Source: Elusimicrobiota bacterium (GTDB lineage Bacteria > Elusimicrobiota > Elusimicrobia > UBA1565 > UBA9628). From it: 64,000 bases of DNA. The stretch lies in assembly GCA_026388095.1 (NCBI GenBank), contig JAPLKL010000079.1, positions 1 to 64,000 on the forward strand, given 5' to 3'. The notes below the pieces were generated by a model. It worked only from the letters and a program-made list of their open reading frames with translations, was not told the origin of the DNA and did not search any database. The translations under genes and the position numbers were made by a program. Within the stretch, counting starts at the first letter, position 1, and each line of letters starts with the position of its first letter. Positions 31,331-49,508 of the stretch are shown in pieces.

Positions 31331-31755
31331 TCCGCAGCCGCCTCCACCCGGATGTCGGCCTTCTCCCGCAGGAAGACCTTGACCGCGTAGGGCTGGGTCA
31401 GGGCCTGCAGCGCCATGCCGTCTGGCTTCATCTCCCTATATCGTACCACGGTGGCGGCGCCCGAGGAGTCGGGCTCCAGCCACTGCACGCGGTAGCCGCC
31501 GGTGCTGCGCTGCCCCAAGAGTACGGCGACCGCGAAGTGGGTCTTGAAGTCCGGGGCGGGCGGAGCCGTCTGGCCGATCTCGGCCCAGGCCTCCCGCCAC
31601 TGCGTCTCGGACTGCAGGGCACGCCGGGCGCCTTGGACCGCGCCGGAGAACTGCCCTTTCCACTCTGTCATGGCCGCCTCCTTCACCTGGGCCTGCGGGG
31701 CCCCGCGGCAGGCGCCCAGAGCCAGGGCCAAAGCCAGCGCCGCGCTCGTCCTCAA
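31327..31755 (-). CDS. PrcB-like lipoprotein
   Basis: The 142-residue product starts at TTG 31755 (RTSAALALALALGACRG) and has a good lipobox (LGAC). The C-terminal half, HFAVAVLLGQRSTGGYRVQWLE and following strands, matches the PrcB C-terminal fold with its conserved TGGY, named after a subunit of the Treponema PrtP protease complex. The TTG lies in a TTGA overlap with the tldD stop, and its own stop overlaps the next start. Next to a protease gene, it may stabilise or present a substrate. Confidence 0.65.
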   Translation of the reverse strand: MRTSAALALALALGACRGAPQAQVKEAAMTEWKGQFSGAVQGARRALQSETQWREAWAEIGQTAPPAPDFKTHFAVAVLLGQRSTGGYRVQWLEPDSSGAATVVRYREMKPDGMALQALTQPYAVKVFLREKADIRVEAAAD

Positions 31756-33158
31756 TTCTGGCCTCCGATGAGCATGGTCGGGATGCGGATGGTGGGCATC
31801 CCATCCGAGACCGGAACTCCCTGTCCGTCCTTGCCGCAGGTGCCGATGCCCCAGCCGATGTCCCAGCCCACGCGGTCGATGGCGGCCAGGGCCTCGGAGC
31901 CCACGCCCATGAGGTTGGCGTCGCGCACGAGGTGGCGTATGACCCCGTCTTCCACCCAGTAGCCTTCGTCCACCTCGAAGACGAACTCGCCCGTGGCCGT
32001 GTTGACCTGGCCGCCGCCCATGCGGGTCACGAAGATGCCGGCCTTGAGGCTGCGCAGGATATCCTTGGGGTCGTCTTGACCCGGGGCGATGTAGAGGTTG
32101 GACATGCGGGGGATGGGACGGCATTGGAAGGACTCGCGCCGGCCGTGGCCGTTGGAGGGGCGCCCCTCCTTCAAGGCGCTGACGCGGTCGTAAAGGTAGT
32201 CGACCAGGACGCCGTCGCGGACCAGGACGGTGGGCCGGGCCGGCACGCCCTCGTCGTCGAAGCCGAAGCTGCCCCGGCAGCAGGGGATGGTCGGGTCATC
32301 GATGATCGTGATGTTCGCGGGCGCCACGCGCGAGCCGATCTTGCCCTGGTAGGCGGGAGAGGTGCCTTCCTGGACCAGGTCCGCCTCGAGGGAATGGCCG
32401 ACGGCCTCGTGGATGAGGGTGCCGCCGGCCCGGGCGGAGATGACGACCGGCATCTCGCCGGCCTTGGCCTTGGGGGCGGCGAGCTTGGCCAGGGCCCGCT
32501 CCGCGGCGGCCTTGGCCGCGGCCAGCGGCCGGAAATCCGCGAGCAGCTCGTAGCCTTTGAGTCCGCCCACCACGGCCTGCCCGGTCTGCAGGTTGCCATC
32601 CTTCTCGGCCACGACGTTGACGGAGAGCAGGACCGCTGCGCGCGAGGCGCGGCAATGGGCGCCTTCGCTGTTGACCAGGAGCACCTCTTTACGGCCTTCC
32701 CCGTAGGCGAGGGTCACCTGGCGGATGTGGGGGAAGCCCGAGCGCACGGCTTGGTCCACGCTCTTGAGCAGGGCGATCTTGTCGTCGAGGGGGACGGTGC
32801 GCGGATCGGTGCGCACGGGGACGCGCCAGGACAGCGCCGGGCCCAGGGGGACCGGCGCTGGGGCGGGGCCGGGGCCGAGCAGGGCCGCGCGCAGGCGCAG
32901 GGCCTCTCCGCGGGCCAAGGAGTTGGCGCTGCCCTGCAAGGTCTCGACCTGGGGCGTCTTGGAGGAGGGGTCATGCCGGCGCAGGAAGCGCAAGCCCGCG
33001 CCGCGCTCGGTGCCGGCGGCGAGGTCCTCGACGCGGGAGTCCTCGAATCTCACGGACGCGCTCTCGGATTGCTCCAGGAAGACTTCTCCGTAGTCGGCGC
33101 CGCGCACGCAGCGCGCCAGTTCGTCCAAGGAGACCGTGTCCAGGCCGTCGCCGAGCAT
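31752..33158 (-). CDS. tldD: TldD-family metalloprotease
   Basis: The 468-residue protein is a TldD-type peptidase. It carries the zinc motif HEAVGH near residue 283, preceded by VVISARAGGTL, and the C-terminal GTCGKDGQGVPVSDGMPTIRI. In known systems TldD works with TldE/PmbA as a heterodimer that degrades unfolded peptides and trims modified peptide precursors; no tldE is in the window. ATG 33158 (MLGDGLDTVSLDELA) gives the normal family length; a longer frame to 33242 would include part of a repeat element. It leads a four-gene minus-strand operon. Confidence 0.9.
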   Translation of the reverse strand: MLGDGLDTVSLDELARCVRGADYGEVFLEQSESASVRFEDSRVEDLAAGTERGAGLRFLRRHDPSSKTPQVETLQGSANSLARGEALRLRAALLGPGPAPAPVPLGPALSWRVPVRTDPRTVPLDDKIALLKSVDQAVRSGFPHIRQVTLAYGEGRKEVLLVNSEGAHCRASRAAVLLSVNVVAEKDGNLQTGQAVVGGLKGYELLADFRPLAAAKAAAERALAKLAAPKAKAGEMPVVISARAGGTLIHEAVGHSLEADLVQEGTSPAYQGKIGSRVAPANITIIDDPTIPCCRGSFGFDDEGVPARPTVLVRDGVLVDYLYDRVSALKEGRPSNGHGRRESFQCRPIPRMSNLYIAPGQDDPKDILRSLKAGIFVTRMGGGQVNTATGEFVFEVDEGYWVEDGVIRHLVRDANLMGVGSEALAAIDRVGWDIGWGIGTCGKDGQGVPVSDGMPTIRIPTMLIGGQN

Positions 33159-33227
33159 CAGGTCAAAGGTATCATTTCTGCTCTTCGGGAGGAAGGGCGC
33201 CGGCCAGAGCGCTGGCCGTGAGGACAT

Positions 33228-33271
33228 CCGTCCGGCCGGCACCGGCGGAACTTCCGATACCGCCGGCGCCC
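33228..33271. repeat. REP-like hairpin element, copy 1
   Basis: A 44-base element with internal stem CCGGCGG / CCGCCGG around AACTTCCGATA. It differs at four positions from the copy at 47924-47967, and two of those changes (G to T and C to A) keep the stem paired. It sits about 70 bases upstream of the tldD start. Confidence 0.7.
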
Positions 33272-33454: not shown

Positions 33455-33491
33455 ATTCCGTCCCGACCAGCTTTATCGGTCGGGACGGAAT
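33455..33491. repeat. Perfect inverted repeat, 14-base arms
   Basis: ATTCCGTCCCGACC at 33455-33468 is exactly complementary to GGTCGGGACGGAAT at 33478-33491, with a nine-base loop. Its first 11 bases (ATTCCGTCCCG) also begin the repeat inside the kinase gene at 47921. Confidence 0.85.
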
Positions 33492-33660: not shown

Positions 33661-33759
33661 CGTTTTTGAAAAAATTACGCTGGAAATATCGATGCTATTC
33701 ATATCGCGCGCGCGATGTGAATAGCACTGCGAAAATAAGGACAATTTTTTCCAAAACGG
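33661..33759. repeat. 99-base foldback element, copy A
   Basis: The element begins CGTTTTTGAAAAAATTA and ends with the near-complement CAATTTTTTCCAAAACGG. Its centre is the perfect palindrome ATCGCGCGCGCGAT flanked by GCTATTCA / TGAATAGC. A second copy of identical length lies at 56049-56147. No coding capacity; it resembles a miniature palindromic repeat (MITE or REP type). Confidence 0.8.
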
Positions 33760-44530: not shown

Positions 44531-45694
44531 ATGGCTGACGAGAAACGGGAGGGCCCGCCCGACCAAGAGGTCAAGAACATCCTCAGCGATCTCGAGGCCA
44601 TCCTCTCCGATCTGGGCGGTGCGCCGCCGCCCTCCGCTCCCGCAGAGCCGCCGTCCCTGACGCCCAAAGCACTTCCTGATGTGCGTCGGGTCCCGGAAGG
44701 GACGCCTCCTCCCCCCAAGCCTCCTGCGCCGGCGCCCAAGCCCGTCGTCGAGGCGCCTCCGGCCCAGGCCGCGCCCAAACCGCCTGCGCCGCCGCCGCCC
44801 CCCGCGCTTCGGGACCAGCCGGTCGAGCTGGGAGCACGGTCGCTCCCGCCGGCGAAGGCGCCGATGTCGCCGCCCAAACCTGCGGCCCCGCCCGCCTTCT
44901 CCGACAAGCCGCCTTTGGAGTTCGGTCTTGGAGGCGGAGCGCAGACAGGCGCCGCTCAGCCTGCGTCCCGTGCTTCCACGCCTTCGGCCGTCCCGGCGCC
45001 TGCGGCCAAGCCTGCGCCGGTGAGTCCCCCTGCGCCAGCGGCCGTCCCGCCGCCTGCGGCCAAGCCTGCATTGGTGATTCCCCCTGCCCCGGTGGCCGTC
45101 CCGGCGCCTGCGGCCAAGCCGGCACCGGCGATTCCCCCTGCCCCGGTGGCCATCCCGGCGCCCGCGGCCAAGCCCGCGCCGGTGATCCCCCCTGCGCCAG
45201 CGGCCGTCCCGGCGCCTGCGGCCAAACCTGCGCAGACGGCGGCGCCGGCGTTCCCGCCCCTGCGCGGCTTGCCGCCGGCGGATGCGCTGCCCGATATCCC
45301 GGCTCCGGGGAATATCGGCAAGGACCAGACACGGCGCGTGGCGTTCCTCTACCTGAGCCAGTTCGAAGCCGAGCGCGAATCTTTGGCCAAGTTGCTCGAC
45401 CAGACCGCCCAGACCGTGCCCAAGAAGCCGCTTTTCTTGCGGCGGGCCCTCTATCAGCCGATCATGGAAGGCTGCGACGGCAAGAGCATCCTGACGCGGC
45501 TCCGCCAGGCCAAGGCCGTTGCCGCTTTGGGCATCGTCCAAGGGATCTCCGAGGCGAAGCTGCGCGAATGGAGCGAGGCTATCGCGGGCGGGGGCGTCAT
45601 GTTCCGGCCGGTGGCGCCGAGCGACGTCGGGAAAAGGTCGGTGGCCATCGACATCGTGGTGGACGTCATGCTGCTGCCCTGCGAGGGTTCATGA
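44531..45694 (+). CDS. Pro/Ala-rich protein with C-terminal domain, unknown function
   Basis: The 387-residue protein has three parts. An acidic N-terminal helix (DQEVKNILSDLEAILSDLG) is followed by about 210 residues of proline/alanine/lysine-rich linker, then a C-terminal domain of about 125 residues (RRVAFLYLSQFEAERESLAKLLDQ ... SVAIDIVVDVMLLP). The linker includes four and a half tandem 54-base units. The C-terminal domain looks alpha/beta but is not recognised. It lies 16 bases after pilT and overlaps the DnaA-like gene by four, so it may tether pilus components. Confidence 0.6.
   Translation: MADEKREGPPDQEVKNILSDLEAILSDLGGAPPPSAPAEPPSLTPKALPDVRRVPEGTPPPPKPPAPAPKPVVEAPPAQAAPKPPAPPPPPALRDQPVELGARSLPPAKAPMSPPKPAAPPAFSDKPPLEFGLGGGAQTGAAQPASRASTPSAVPAPAAKPAPVSPPAPAAVPPPAAKPALVIPPAPVAVPAPAAKPAPAIPPAPVAIPAPAAKPAPVIPPAPAAVPAPAAKPAQTAAPAFPPLRGLPPADALPDIPAPGNIGKDQTRRVAFLYLSQFEAERESLAKLLDQTAQTVPKKPLFLRRALYQPIMEGCDGKSILTRLRQAKAVAALGIVQGISEAKLREWSEAIAGGGVMFRPVAPSDVGKRSVAIDIVVDVMLLPCEGS
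44990..45235 (+). repeat. Tandem 54-base coding repeats
   Basis: About 4.5 copies of a 54-base unit, each encoding VPAPAAKPAPVxPPAPxA, begin at 44990, 45044, 45098 and 45152. Copies differ by a few bases. They form part of a flexible Pro/Ala linker and are prone to slippage. Confidence 0.8.
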
Positions 45695-47493
45695 CTAAGT
45701 GGTCCCTGCGTCCCGATCCCAGCCCCCATGACGCGGCCCGCTATGTCCTGCTGATCCAGGGCAATATGACGCACGTCAGCCAGCTCGTCAAGAGGTTCGG
45801 GGCGATGTGCGGCCGGCCGATGAGTATCGAGCATGACGAGGGTTTCAATTTCACCATCTATCTGCATGCGATCACCAAGGACGGGTTGGACAAGGTCGCC
45901 CAATATCTCAAGGAGATCGCTCCCAACGCGCTAGGTCACATGGAGGCATCCTCTCCGGCCCCAGCGCTGCCGGATATCCCGCCCCTGGTGCGGGAGGCCC
46001 CTGGTGTCCCGGGCGTGGCGGACCTCAGCGGGGCGCAGGCGGCGTCCGCCGCCGGACCCACGGACGCCGGGCCCGTGCTCACCCCGCCTACGCTGTCCGC
46101 TCCGATCCTCCCGGAGCCGTCGCCAGCGACGGGCCCTTCTGCGGCGGAGACGGCGGTGACGCCTCCCCAGCCGACACCTGCACCGGAACCGACACCGGCA
46201 CCCGAACCGACACCGGCACCGGAGCCGGCACCGGTACCGTCGGTCCTGTCCCCCGGCACCGCGGCCGCTGGCGCAGCCAGGCCGCTGTGGGGCCTGAAGT
46301 CCAGCCCTCAGCCCAAGCTCACTTTCGACAGCCTGCTGGTCGGCGCCTACAACCGCTTCGCGCACGCGGCCGCCACTTCCGTGGTCGGCTCGCCCGGGAC
46401 CATGTACAATCCCTTGTTCGTCTACGGCGCGCCCGGAGTGGGCAAGACGCATATGCTGCATGCCATCGCCTCGGCCCTCAAGAAGAACTGGGACGAGCAG
46501 TCGGTCCTCGTCACCACGGGCGCGGCCCTGGCCAACGCGGTGAGCTGCGCTCTGGCCGAGAACCGCCTCCCCGAGATCGCCAAGCTCGTCGAGGGGGCCA
46601 AGGCCCTGCTGGTCGACGACGTGCATCTTCTGGCCATCACGGACAAGAACCAGGCGACGCTGGCCCGGCTGTTCGGGGAGTTCTTCTCGCGCAACCTCCA
46701 GGTGGTCCTCACTTCCGTCTACCCGCCCCGGACCTTGGGGGCGGTGGAGGAGGCGCTCAAGATCTCCTTGGCCAAGGGCTGGGCCGTGGATATGAAACCG
46801 GCCAGTCTGACCGTCCAAGAGGACATGATCACCGCCTTCGTGGACCGCACGGGTGCCCAGCTGGCGGGCGCCGAGATCAAGAAGCTCCATGAGCGGCTGG
46901 GCTCCACCTACAGCGAGTTCCCGCGTTATGTGATGCGCTGGAAGGCGCTCGGCGAGCTTTACCGCGGCAAGGGCTCCACGCCCGCCAACGACGACATGCT
47001 GGGAGACCTCTTCAGCGCGGGCGCCAGGGGCAGCCAGGCGGACTTGCCCAACTCGACCGAGCTGGAGGCCAGCCGGCACTTCGCGCCGCCGGCTCCCGCG
47101 GCGGACGCGGTCAACCTGGCCCTGTTCTGCCCCCGTGGCCAGGACGCCATGGTGACCTGGCTGGTGGCCCGCTTCTACAAGATCGGCGCGGAGTTCGGCG
47201 CGACGCAGACCTATAATCATGTGCTCTGCGAATCCTACGACGCGGAGCAGCCTTTGGGGGTGCCTTTCCAGATTGGCGAGTCCTGCCAGAGGTCCAACGC
47301 CCAGGCCGCCTTGGTCCTCGGTCCGCCGCGCGAAGCCCGGCTGGCCGCGCGGGAGGGCGAGTTCGCGCACGCCGTGCGGCATATCCTCGACAGTTTCGGC
47401 CTGGCCGCGGGCTGGATCCCGTTCACCGAGACCACCACCACCAGGCCCTTCCTGGCCGCGCATCTGGACTTCAAGGTGTTCCTCAAGAGATGA
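45691..47493 (+). CDS. DnaA-like AAA+ ATPase without the DNA-binding domain
   Basis: The 600-residue protein has an N-terminal domain of about 85 residues (YVLLIQGNMTHVSQLVKRFG), a Pro/Thr/Glu linker with TPAPEP repeats (about 150-190), and an AAA+ domain of DnaA type: LTFDSLLVGAYNRFAHAAA, Walker A GAPGVGKT (246-253) and Walker B KALLVDDVHLL. The DnaA domain IV signature (DHRTVxHA-like) that reads oriC is absent; instead there is a further domain of about 150 residues ending LDFKVFLKR. It is therefore not an initiator. Overlap with both neighbours and closeness to pilT suggest a role in pilus or polarity control. Confidence 0.8.
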   Translation: MTKWSLRPDPSPHDAARYVLLIQGNMTHVSQLVKRFGAMCGRPMSIEHDEGFNFTIYLHAITKDGLDKVAQYLKEIAPNALGHMEASSPAPALPDIPPLVREAPGVPGVADLSGAQAASAAGPTDAGPVLTPPTLSAPILPEPSPATGPSAAETAVTPPQPTPAPEPTPAPEPTPAPEPAPVPSVLSPGTAAAGAARPLWGLKSSPQPKLTFDSLLVGAYNRFAHAAATSVVGSPGTMYNPLFVYGAPGVGKTHMLHAIASALKKNWDEQSVLVTTGAALANAVSCALAENRLPEIAKLVEGAKALLVDDVHLLAITDKNQATLARLFGEFFSRNLQVVLTSVYPPRTLGAVEEALKISLAKGWAVDMKPASLTVQEDMITAFVDRTGAQLAGAEIKKLHERLGSTYSEFPRYVMRWKALGELYRGKGSTPANDDMLGDLFSAGARGSQADLPNSTELEASRHFAPPAPAADAVNLALFCPRGQDAMVTWLVARFYKIGAEFGATQTYNHVLCESYDAEQPLGVPFQIGESCQRSNAQAALVLGPPREARLAAREGEFAHAVRHILDSFGLAAGWIPFTETTTTRPFLAAHLDFKVFLKR

Positions 47494-49508
47494 ACCCCGG
47501 CCTGACGCTGGCCCTCGCCGCGTTGGTGGCCGGCTTCGCGACGTACTGGTTCTTCGTGTTCCGGCGGCTGCTGCCTCTGGACCGGGAACTGCGCGCGGTC
47601 CGGGAGCGGGCCGGGGACCTGCGGCGCTTCGCCCTGGAGGTGCTGGAGCTGCATCTTTCCACCGGTACCGCGCCGCATGCGCTCAACGAGATGGGGCAGC
47701 GCTGCGTGGTCTGCCTGCATCAGCGCCTGCCGGAGCTCGCCTTGTGCTGGGTCCGCCGCGCCGGCGGCACCGACGAAGGGATCATGGTCGCGGCGCGGGG
47801 CCGGGTCTGGTCCGAACTGGGCCAGGACGCTTGGGACTTCGGCTCCGCCCTCTTGCGCCAAGCTTCGGAGGAGGGGGGGCTGACCAAGCCCATCACCGGC
47901 GCCGGCGCCGGCGGTAAGGAATTCCGTCCCGCCGGCACCTGCGGAACCTCCGATACCGCAGGCGCCCGGGGCTCCGAGACCGACCCCCTGCTGCGCCTGC
48001 TGGCGGACCACGGCTTCTGCGTCCTGCGCCTGATCCCCTGGGGGCGGTCGGGGAGCTCCGAAGGCCTGCTGGTCGCCGCGGACCGCGACCCCCGGGGCGC
48101 GGGGCTGCAGGCGGCCGAGCCGTTCCTCGACATCGTGCGGCGCCTGGCCACGTCCTTGGCCGAGATCGTCGACGGCCTGGTGCGGCTCTCCCAGGCCAGC
48201 GAGCGCCTCCAGGGCGGACTGACCTCGGCCATCGAGGAGCTCACTCATACCCACACCAGGCTCATCGAGAAGGCCCGCGAGGTGCGCACCCTCCATGACG
48301 TGGCCGAGGCTTTGATCTCGCGGGGGGCCAAGACGGAGTCCCTCGGCGCCATCGTCTCCATCGTGGCCAAGTACCTGCAGGCGGACCTGGTGGCCTTCCT
48401 GCTCTTCGACGAGGAGACCCAGGAGCTGGTCACCCAGGCGGGGGCCTACGGCCTGGAGGGGGAAGAGCAGTTCTACCGCATGCCGCTGTCCCGCGACGAC
48501 GCCTCCTCGGTGCGGGTCTACCGGACCCGCCGGCCCTTCCTGACCGGCGACGCGCAGAGCGACCCCAACGTCATCGCCCACTACGCCAAGCTCTGGAAGG
48601 TGCATTCCCTGATGGTCATCCCCCTGCTGGTGGAGGAGCGCTGCATCGGGGTCATGCGCGTGGGCAGCTTCCAGAAGGACTATTTCAGCGGCGAGCAGGT
48701 CGAGATGATGACCATCATCGCCGAAGAGGCCGCGGTCATCGTGGAAACGGCCATCCTGAACCGCAAGCTCTCCCAGGTGGCGGAGCAATTGGCCAATCTC
48801 AACCGCATGAAGAGCGATTTCGTCTCCACGGTCAGCCATGAGTTCAAGACGCCGCTGACCTCGCTGTCGGGCTTCCTGGACGTGCTGCTCAGCGGGGAGG
48901 CCGGGCCCCTGAGCGCGCAGCAGCAGGAGTTCCTGAGGATCTCCGAGGCGCAGGTCAAGCGCCTGGCCAGCCTCGTCTCGGACCTGCTGGACTGCTCGCG
49001 CCTGGAAGCCAACATGGAGATGGCGAAGGCCGCGGTGGCCTTGGAGGCCGTGGTCCGCGCCAGCGTCGCCAACCACAGCCTCCGGGCGGGGGAAGCGGGC
49101 AAGACCATCACGGTGGAGGCCTCCGCGCCGGTCCCCGAGGTCGTGGGCGACGCCAAATGGCTGGGCCTGGCCGTGGACAACCTGATCTCCAACGCGGTCA
49201 AATTCACCCGGCCGGGGGGGCGCGTGGCCGTGAGCCTCTCGCGCCAGGGCGAGACCGTGGAGGTCTGCGTGGCCGACGACGGCATCGGCATCCACCCGGA
49301 CGACCAAAGCCGGATCTTCGAGAAGTTCTTCCGGGCCCGCAACCGCTCCGAGATATCGACTCCCGGCACGGGGCTGGGGCTGACCATCGCCAAGGAGGTG
49401 GTCTCCCGGCACGGCGGGCGCATCTGGTTCCAGTCGGAGCCGGGCAAGGGGACGCGCTTCTGCTTCGCCTTGCCGCTGCAGCCGGCGGCCGCAGGGGCCG
49501 GGGATTGA
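47490..49508 (+). CDS. GAF-domain hybrid sensor histidine kinase
   Basis: The 672-residue protein has one N-terminal membrane span (LTLALAALVAGFATYWFFVF), a poorly conserved region, a coiled coil near 230, a GAF domain (about 265-420, VHSLMVIPLLVEERCIGVMRVG), HisKA with the phospho-acceptor His450 in VSHEFKTPLTSL, and a HATPase domain (DNLISNAVKFT, ADDGIGIHPDD, GTGLGLTIAKEVV). Residues about 145-160 (KEFRPAGTCGTSDTAGARG) are encoded by a hairpin repeat also present outside genes at 33228. It overlaps the DnaA-like gene by four bases. No response regulator is adjacent. Confidence 0.92.
   Translation: MNPGLTLALAALVAGFATYWFFVFRRLLPLDRELRAVRERAGDLRRFALEVLELHLSTGTAPHALNEMGQRCVVCLHQRLPELALCWVRRAGGTDEGIMVAARGRVWSELGQDAWDFGSALLRQASEEGGLTKPITGAGAGGKEFRPAGTCGTSDTAGARGSETDPLLRLLADHGFCVLRLIPWGRSGSSEGLLVAADRDPRGAGLQAAEPFLDIVRRLATSLAEIVDGLVRLSQASERLQGGLTSAIEELTHTHTRLIEKAREVRTLHDVAEALISRGAKTESLGAIVSIVAKYLQADLVAFLLFDEETQELVTQAGAYGLEGEEQFYRMPLSRDDASSVRVYRTRRPFLTGDAQSDPNVIAHYAKLWKVHSLMVIPLLVEERCIGVMRVGSFQKDYFSGEQVEMMTIIAEEAAVIVETAILNRKLSQVAEQLANLNRMKSDFVSTVSHEFKTPLTSLSGFLDVLLSGEAGPLSAQQQEFLRISEAQVKRLASLVSDLLDCSRLEANMEMAKAAVALEAVVRASVANHSLRAGEAGKTITVEASAPVPEVVGDAKWLGLAVDNLISNAVKFTRPGGRVAVSLSRQGETVEVCVADDGIGIHPDDQSRIFEKFFRARNRSEISTPGTGLGLTIAKEVVSRHGGRIWFQSEPGKGTRFCFALPLQPAAAGAGD
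47924..47967. repeat. REP-like hairpin element, copy 2, inside a kinase gene
   Basis: The stem is CCTGCGG / CCGCAGG around AACCTCCGATA. It matches the copy at 33228-33271 at 40 of 44 positions, with a compensatory stem change. It is read in frame and adds a non-conserved loop to the kinase. Confidence 0.75.

Follow-up and report, generated by a model that had tools for sequence, protein, structure and literature searches.

The Rickettsia palindromic elements (RPEs; Ogata 2000, 2002, via PMC10969869, PMC3733652) are short palindromic sequences that occur in frame within unrelated functional genes. In the cited passages they are described as ~150 bp long, no mobility enzyme is assigned to them, and RPE-4 and RPE-6 appear as CGTC-tagged REPs (PMC3733652). 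REP, BIME and REPIN sequences (PMC3116915, PMC3733652) have paired hairpins as the mobile unit, with lone halves, arrays, RAYT genes and a fixed tetranucleotide. GTAG-REPs carry this GTAG at the foot of the hairpin; like REPINs, they are predominantly extragenic and flank RAYT genes. CGTC-REPs have 8–9 bp stems, 4–5 nt loops, a terminal CGTC and a CCA-like tail, and include intragenic copies and dimers without a dedicated transposase (PMC3733652). Transposons of the IS200/IS605 type insert strand-specifically and without duplicating their target. They use a short hairpin-adjacent sequence complementary to the cleavage or target site, and a change of this guide retargets the transposon. Such complementarity is established for IS608 (PMC8266576, PMC5934647) and has been reported for the GTAG of a Marinomonas REP and its TnpA_REP (PMC8266576). 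Finally, mitochondrial double-hairpin and repetitive hairpin elements (PMC2800124) form tandem double hairpins with complementary stem substitutions and are presumed mobile.

The window analysed here, a 64,000-nucleotide stretch from an Elusimicrobiota bacterium (GCA_026388095.1, contig JAPLKL010000079.1), contains two copies of an element that resembles each of these systems in part. Compared by description, it shares with RPEs the in-frame insertion into functional genes, the absence from orthologues and the lack of an assigned mobility enzyme. Unlike RPEs, it is 57 bp long (63 bp in a related family), consists of two hairpins, occurs in another phylum and displays a hinge–target match, a feature that the cited RPE passages do not report. 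Paired hairpins, lone halves, arrays and RAYT genes are in common with REPINs, but the guide-like dinucleotide of this element is variable, many copies lie within genes, and no RAYT gene is flanked by it. A conserved GTAAGG (sometimes GTAGGG) is found at the apex side of the first stem instead of GTAG at the hairpin foot. With CGTC-REPs the element shares intragenic copies, dimers and the absence of a dedicated transposase, but its stems are 7 bp, its loops 11–14 nt, and a terminal CGTC is missing. Subfamilies with differing hinges parallel the retargeting of IS200/IS605; in contrast to these transposons, a single hinge is shared by both ends, the target dinucleotide is repeated at both, and the guide is deduced from covariation only. 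The mitochondrial elements, again compared by description, differ in being mostly intergenic or in rRNA genes. In its workings the element resembles a REP/REPIN or an RPE. A search of the open-access literature turned up no earlier description of this kind of element from Elusimicrobia.

A family of double hairpins

The original prediction drew attention to a 44-base repeat (33228–33271 and 47924–47967) with four mismatches, two of which form one stem pair. Both the repeat and the compensated pair, G-C at 33244/33264 and T-A at 47940/47960, were confirmed; a chance origin is not to be expected, as 100 shuffles produced no such match. The proposed extent was too narrow, however: the 44 bases make up two thirds, on the 3' side, of a ~57-bp element of two adjacent hairpins (Table 1), and the 5' hairpin, H1, lay outside the interval. 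A third mismatch, G to C (33234/47930), is offset by a C to G change in H1 (33217/47913), and the window copies are distinguished by two compensated pairs, not one. Copy 1 is intergenic and lies immediately upstream of a TldD-type protease gene, the likely start of which is the ATG at 33158; the mechanical open reading frame begins inside the element at 33242. Two further palindromes are found in this region, a perfect inverted repeat of 14 bp, ATTCCGTCCCGACC, whose loop measures 9 nt (33455–33491, ~185 bp from copy 1), and a 17-bp near-perfect one (33693–33726). Directly upstream of the kinase gene that harbors copy 2, positions 45568–47493 encode a protein with a DnaA-type ATPase domain and a proline/alanine-rich linker.

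Table 1. Features of the two element copies and adjoining genes (positions in the window)
Feature	Position	Strand	Evidence
Double-hairpin element copy 1, intergenic, upstream of tldD-type gene	33207..33271	+	Covariance model R1, 86.4 bits, E 1.1e-11
H1 of copy 1	33212..33239	+	Alignment stem columns 6-12/27-33
H2 of copy 1, G-C variant	33242..33266	+	Stem columns 36-42/54-60
Double-hairpin element copy 2, within kinase gene	47903..47967	+	R1, 91.3 bits, E 1.6e-12; G003 orthologue without element
H1 of copy 2, G-C at columns 11/28 (C-G in copy 1)	47908..47935	+	Sequence
H2 of copy 2, T-A variant	47938..47962	+	Sequence, stem columns
Hinge dinucleotide CA, proposed guide	47936..47937	+	Covaries with columns 4-5 and 61-62, 94 copies
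Left target dinucleotide CG	47906..47907	+	Direct repeat 57 bp from 47963-47964
Right target dinucleotide CG, second copy	47963..47964	+	Direct repeat of 47906-47907
Host gene, GAF / HisKA / HATPase_c sensor histidine kinase, 672 aa	47490..49508	+	Pfam; orthologue alignment
TldD/PmbA-type protease gene adjoining copy 1	31752..33158	-	Pfam, ORF list

Alignment of the copies with their flanks gave H1 as GCCGGCC-GTAAGGAAATCCGTCC-GGCCGGC and H2 as ACCTGCGG-AACTTCCGATA-CCGCAGGCGCC. The hairpin loops, TAAGGAAATCCGTC in H1 and AACTTCCGATA in H2, are nearly invariant, and the reverse complement of H1 resembles H2 only loosely. Across 94 distinct copies, Watson-Crick pairing holds at 96% of the stem positions, compared with 10–46% when the partners are slid by 1 to 3 bases. 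Mutual information, calculated over all 2,080 column pairs without an assumed structure, was highest for 38-58, 5-62, 11-28, 4-61, 34-62, 9-30, 4-35 and 35-61. These include the stem pairs 38-58, 11-28 and 9-30, and the stem pair 10-29 is likewise among the top pairs.

Additional copies had been anticipated, and a covariance model built from 25 of them (R1; cut-off E<1e-4) detected 31 in the host genome, with stem covariation throughout the family. The same model found 79, 42, 21 and 7 copies in four genomes of the same genus and none in two others. A simple pattern search of the host genome returned 26 matches versus 0 for the reversed control pattern. Lone half elements and tandem arrays occur in addition to the full double hairpins. 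In a scan of 84,980 genomes, one per species, 57 of 60 stretches with the core came from Elusimicrobia MAGs. Matches in Azospirillum, Poribacteria and Desulfovibrio were dismissed as chance, as the full-length profile did not recover any of the three. After this check, the element is confined to Elusimicrobia within the scanned genomes. Phage-borne spread was also considered and rejected: the single viral-contig match covers the H2 core without H1 and was judged to be chance.

One genome from another family (G044) gave five matches, all on small contigs, which look like bin contamination from an organism similar to G006 in the same groundwater sample. One of these contigs starts inside the kinase element where a G006 contig stops. 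The loci of this contamination-like group are L146/L075 (C105), L062, L080 (C108) and L067 (C162). A second double-hairpin family, with about 16 copies, some of them in frame, was found in another genus (G012). Its unit measures 63 bp, and both H1 and H2 are three bases longer than their counterparts in the 57-bp family. In members of this family (L064, L070, L076, L082, L273) the peptide AGRKEAFRSAGAGGPLLDASGA parallels AGRKEIRPAGTCGTSDTAGA.

Insertion into protein-coding genes

As the original prediction stated, copy 2 is in frame within a kinase; the protein is a GAF-histidine kinase, and the insert lies at residues ~139–160. The expectation that relatives of this kinase would lack 15–20 residues was borne out by the orthologue from the sister genome G003, which is 87% identical and free of the insert (...IAGARDSE...). 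The kinase of a third lineage, G006, and a matching contig from the G044 bin read ...IAGRKEIRPAGTDGASDTAGAGARGSE..., with exactly 19 extra residues in the same loop; the window kinase contains 21 because of an additional GGCGCC in this copy. Since a distance of ~6 bp separates the G006 and window copies within this GGCGC-rich loop, and since they belong to different subfamilies, they may represent independent insertions.

At 12 sites besides the kinase the orthologue is shorter by exactly 57 bp. Deviating differences occur at one site with 54 bp and at one intergenic duplicate with 58. Among the products of genes that carry an insert are glutamine synthetase III, a Mur ligase, an acyltransferase, a class I tRNA synthetase, an isochorismatase and an M18 aminopeptidase. 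For glutamine synthetase, a stretch of 354 nt in element-free genomes corresponds to 411 nt in G006. The clean junctions disfavor the notion that the empty orthologues are scarred deletions. Longer intergenic duplications with or without the element (L003, L011/L041, L015/L018) form filled and empty pairs within one genome. A biotin-carboxyl-carrier-like gene contains the element at its N-terminus in both G006 (L124) and G003 (L299), and a G001 copy (L311), placed by coordinates, adjoins a homologue of this gene.

By conservative gene calls, based on rough codon-usage scoring of the flanking stretches, about 42 of the 94 copies are in genes, where the two flanks share one reading frame and no stop intervenes. 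The others are intergenic, located at gene ends, or unclassified by this scoring. The 57-bp unit adds 19 amino acids and leaves the reading frame intact. Its length of 19 codons, together with the absence of stops from five of the six frames, allows many gene insertions to survive. The in-gene copies use frames +1 (13), -1 (12), -0 (9) and +2 (8). None of the 42 uses the frame with the TAA stop, and the frame that is open yet strongly basic (RRLRYRKFRRCRPDGFPYGRR) is likewise unused. If all five open frames were equally tolerated, absence of the basic frame by chance would have a probability of about 0.8^42 = 9e-5. This bias argues for translation of the insert and removal of harmful peptides. 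That the ribosome instead bypasses the insert, or that the insert is excised from RNA or protein, seems highly improbable: bypassed mobile hairpins are known in yeast mitochondria, but skipping would permit both of the frames that are avoided here.

Within the in-gene copies we detected no codon-position constraint, with substitutions distributed 61/45/73 compared to 56/47/77 in shuffled frames, and no sign of protein-level selection. The inserts are probably tolerated as neutral surface peptides. The stem compensation thus results from selection in favor of elements that pair, or from their amplification, and not from selection within the host gene. The compensated change between the window copies had been ascribed to structural selection or a family of mobile hairpins. 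This view stands for the family, but as evidence for selection within the kinase gene it does not hold, since the change separates members of different subfamilies.

Hinge, target and movement of the element

The dinucleotide between the two hairpins (columns 34-35, the hinge) and those at the left (columns 4-5) and right ends (columns 61-62) vary together. The two ends are equal in 80 of 94 copies (expected 42.6). If one of the two positions may form a G-T or A-C pair, the hinge matches the complement of the left end in 85 copies (expected 55.4) and that of the right end in 88 (expected 56.9). For the 36 copies without CG at both ends, the respective counts are 22 versus 4.8, 29 versus 9.8 and 32 versus 11.1. 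None of 5,000 shuffles attained any of the three match counts, with or without the copies that have CG at both ends; the permutation treats the copies as independent, and the concern that shared ancestry raises is limited by the recurrence of classes in several genomes and with different stems. Complementarity between a hairpin-adjacent sequence and the target, as in IS200/IS605 transposons, is hence seen here as covariation among 94 copies. That a hinge is complementary to a target dinucleotide repeated at both ends is a new observation.

The element ends carry a 2–3 nt direct repeat, and the usual target is CG within GGCGC. The matching dinucleotide pre-exists in empty orthologues of the CG class (CGC, several sites), the GA class (GGGAC, L116/L226) and the CC class (GGCC, L111/L287 and L292). 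At the non-CG sites L098, L103 and L130 the orthologue is too diverged for the old target to be read. Most hinges are one transition off the perfect complement, with CG flanks accompanied by CA in 42 copies, TG in 12 and CG in 2. A simple guide model does not predict this departure, which resembles a C-to-T change in a palindrome. The most economical reading of the covariation is that the hinge guides target choice, as guides do in IS608.

We surmise, with slight preference over all other readings taken together, that the element is a non-autonomous 57-bp two-hairpin family moved by an HUH/Y1 enzyme and guided by the hinge at both ends. This proposal builds on the dispersed copies, the empty orthologous sites, the 57-bp insert, the covarying stems, the conserved loops and the three-way dinucleotide match. 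The folded single strand of the element would serve as substrate for a transposase of IS200/IS605 or RAYT type, which may read the loops. The hinge would pair with the target or cleavage dinucleotide at both ends, and each subfamily would insert where the target matches its own hinge.

The enzyme itself was sought among the Y1 loci. The host genome contains two RAYT-like Y1 transposase genes, and Y1 genes are also present in element-free sister genomes, while G004 has element copies but no Y1 gene. None of 30 Y1 loci in the host and related genomes is flanked by full copies of the element; a lone H1 lies 1.2 kb from one of the two host genes. An assignment by orthology was rejected as well, since Y1 proteins of element-bearing genomes form no single group missing from element-free genomes. 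Among these loci no transposase could thus be tied to the element by flanking or orthology, and a non-exhaustive look at covariance-model and profile matches revealed no element with the two hairpins flanking a transposase, as a full-length IS parent of a classical MITE would have. The lagging-strand bias expected of single-strand transposition did not emerge (12 of 29 copies; the GC skew is weak).

Several other explanations must be weighed against hinge-guided movement. The paired hairpins, lone halves, tandem arrays and RAYT genes resemble REPINs (PMC3116915), so that a host RAYT could move a REP/REPIN-type element in the ordinary way; the three-way match would then belong only to the stem architecture, and the hinge would guide nothing. 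We consider this unlikely: the end dinucleotide already exists in several empty orthologues and cannot be purely a feature of the element, none of the scanned RAYT genes has the element on its flanks, and the distribution of RAYT orthologues does not follow that of the element. Somewhat less likely still is that the match arose after insertion, by template switching in an imperfect palindrome or by gene conversion that copied the flank into the hinge. Quasi-palindrome correction is a known mutational process, and L103 (G001) and L278 (G003), two copies that may be orthologous, show joint differences in the triad and in a stem pair. Yet such correction should yield the perfect complement, which CG-flanked copies contain in only the two cases mentioned above, and identical non-canonical hinges recur at unrelated loci with matching flanks.

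Retention for an RNA fold, as a terminator, attenuator or riboregulator, would agree with the predicted fold, which is stable (z about -2 to -3). We assign very little weight to this option, because copies occur in both orientations, inside open reading frames in four frames and at positions where close relatives have no insert, and the window gave no Rfam match. Integron attC sites are of similar length, but the element contains neither the GTTRRRY core nor the bulged single hairpin of these sites, and this candidate was discarded.

A more specific version of hinge-guided movement, which we put forward tentatively and hold as possible rather than probable, is a mini-element in which a single hinge programs both ends, with retargeted subfamilies (CG, CC, GG, GA, CA, AA) and lengths that are multiples of three. 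The lengths of the two related families, 57 and 63 bp, would on this novel reading enable the element to live inside protein genes. These observations extend in-frame, protein-coding mobile palindromes beyond Rickettsia to housekeeping enzymes of an uncultured phylum that was sampled from groundwater. The copies, about a hundred in number, form a natural data set in which the target and a guide-like dinucleotide have shifted in step, and this makes it directly testable whether REP-like elements insert under the direction of a guide.
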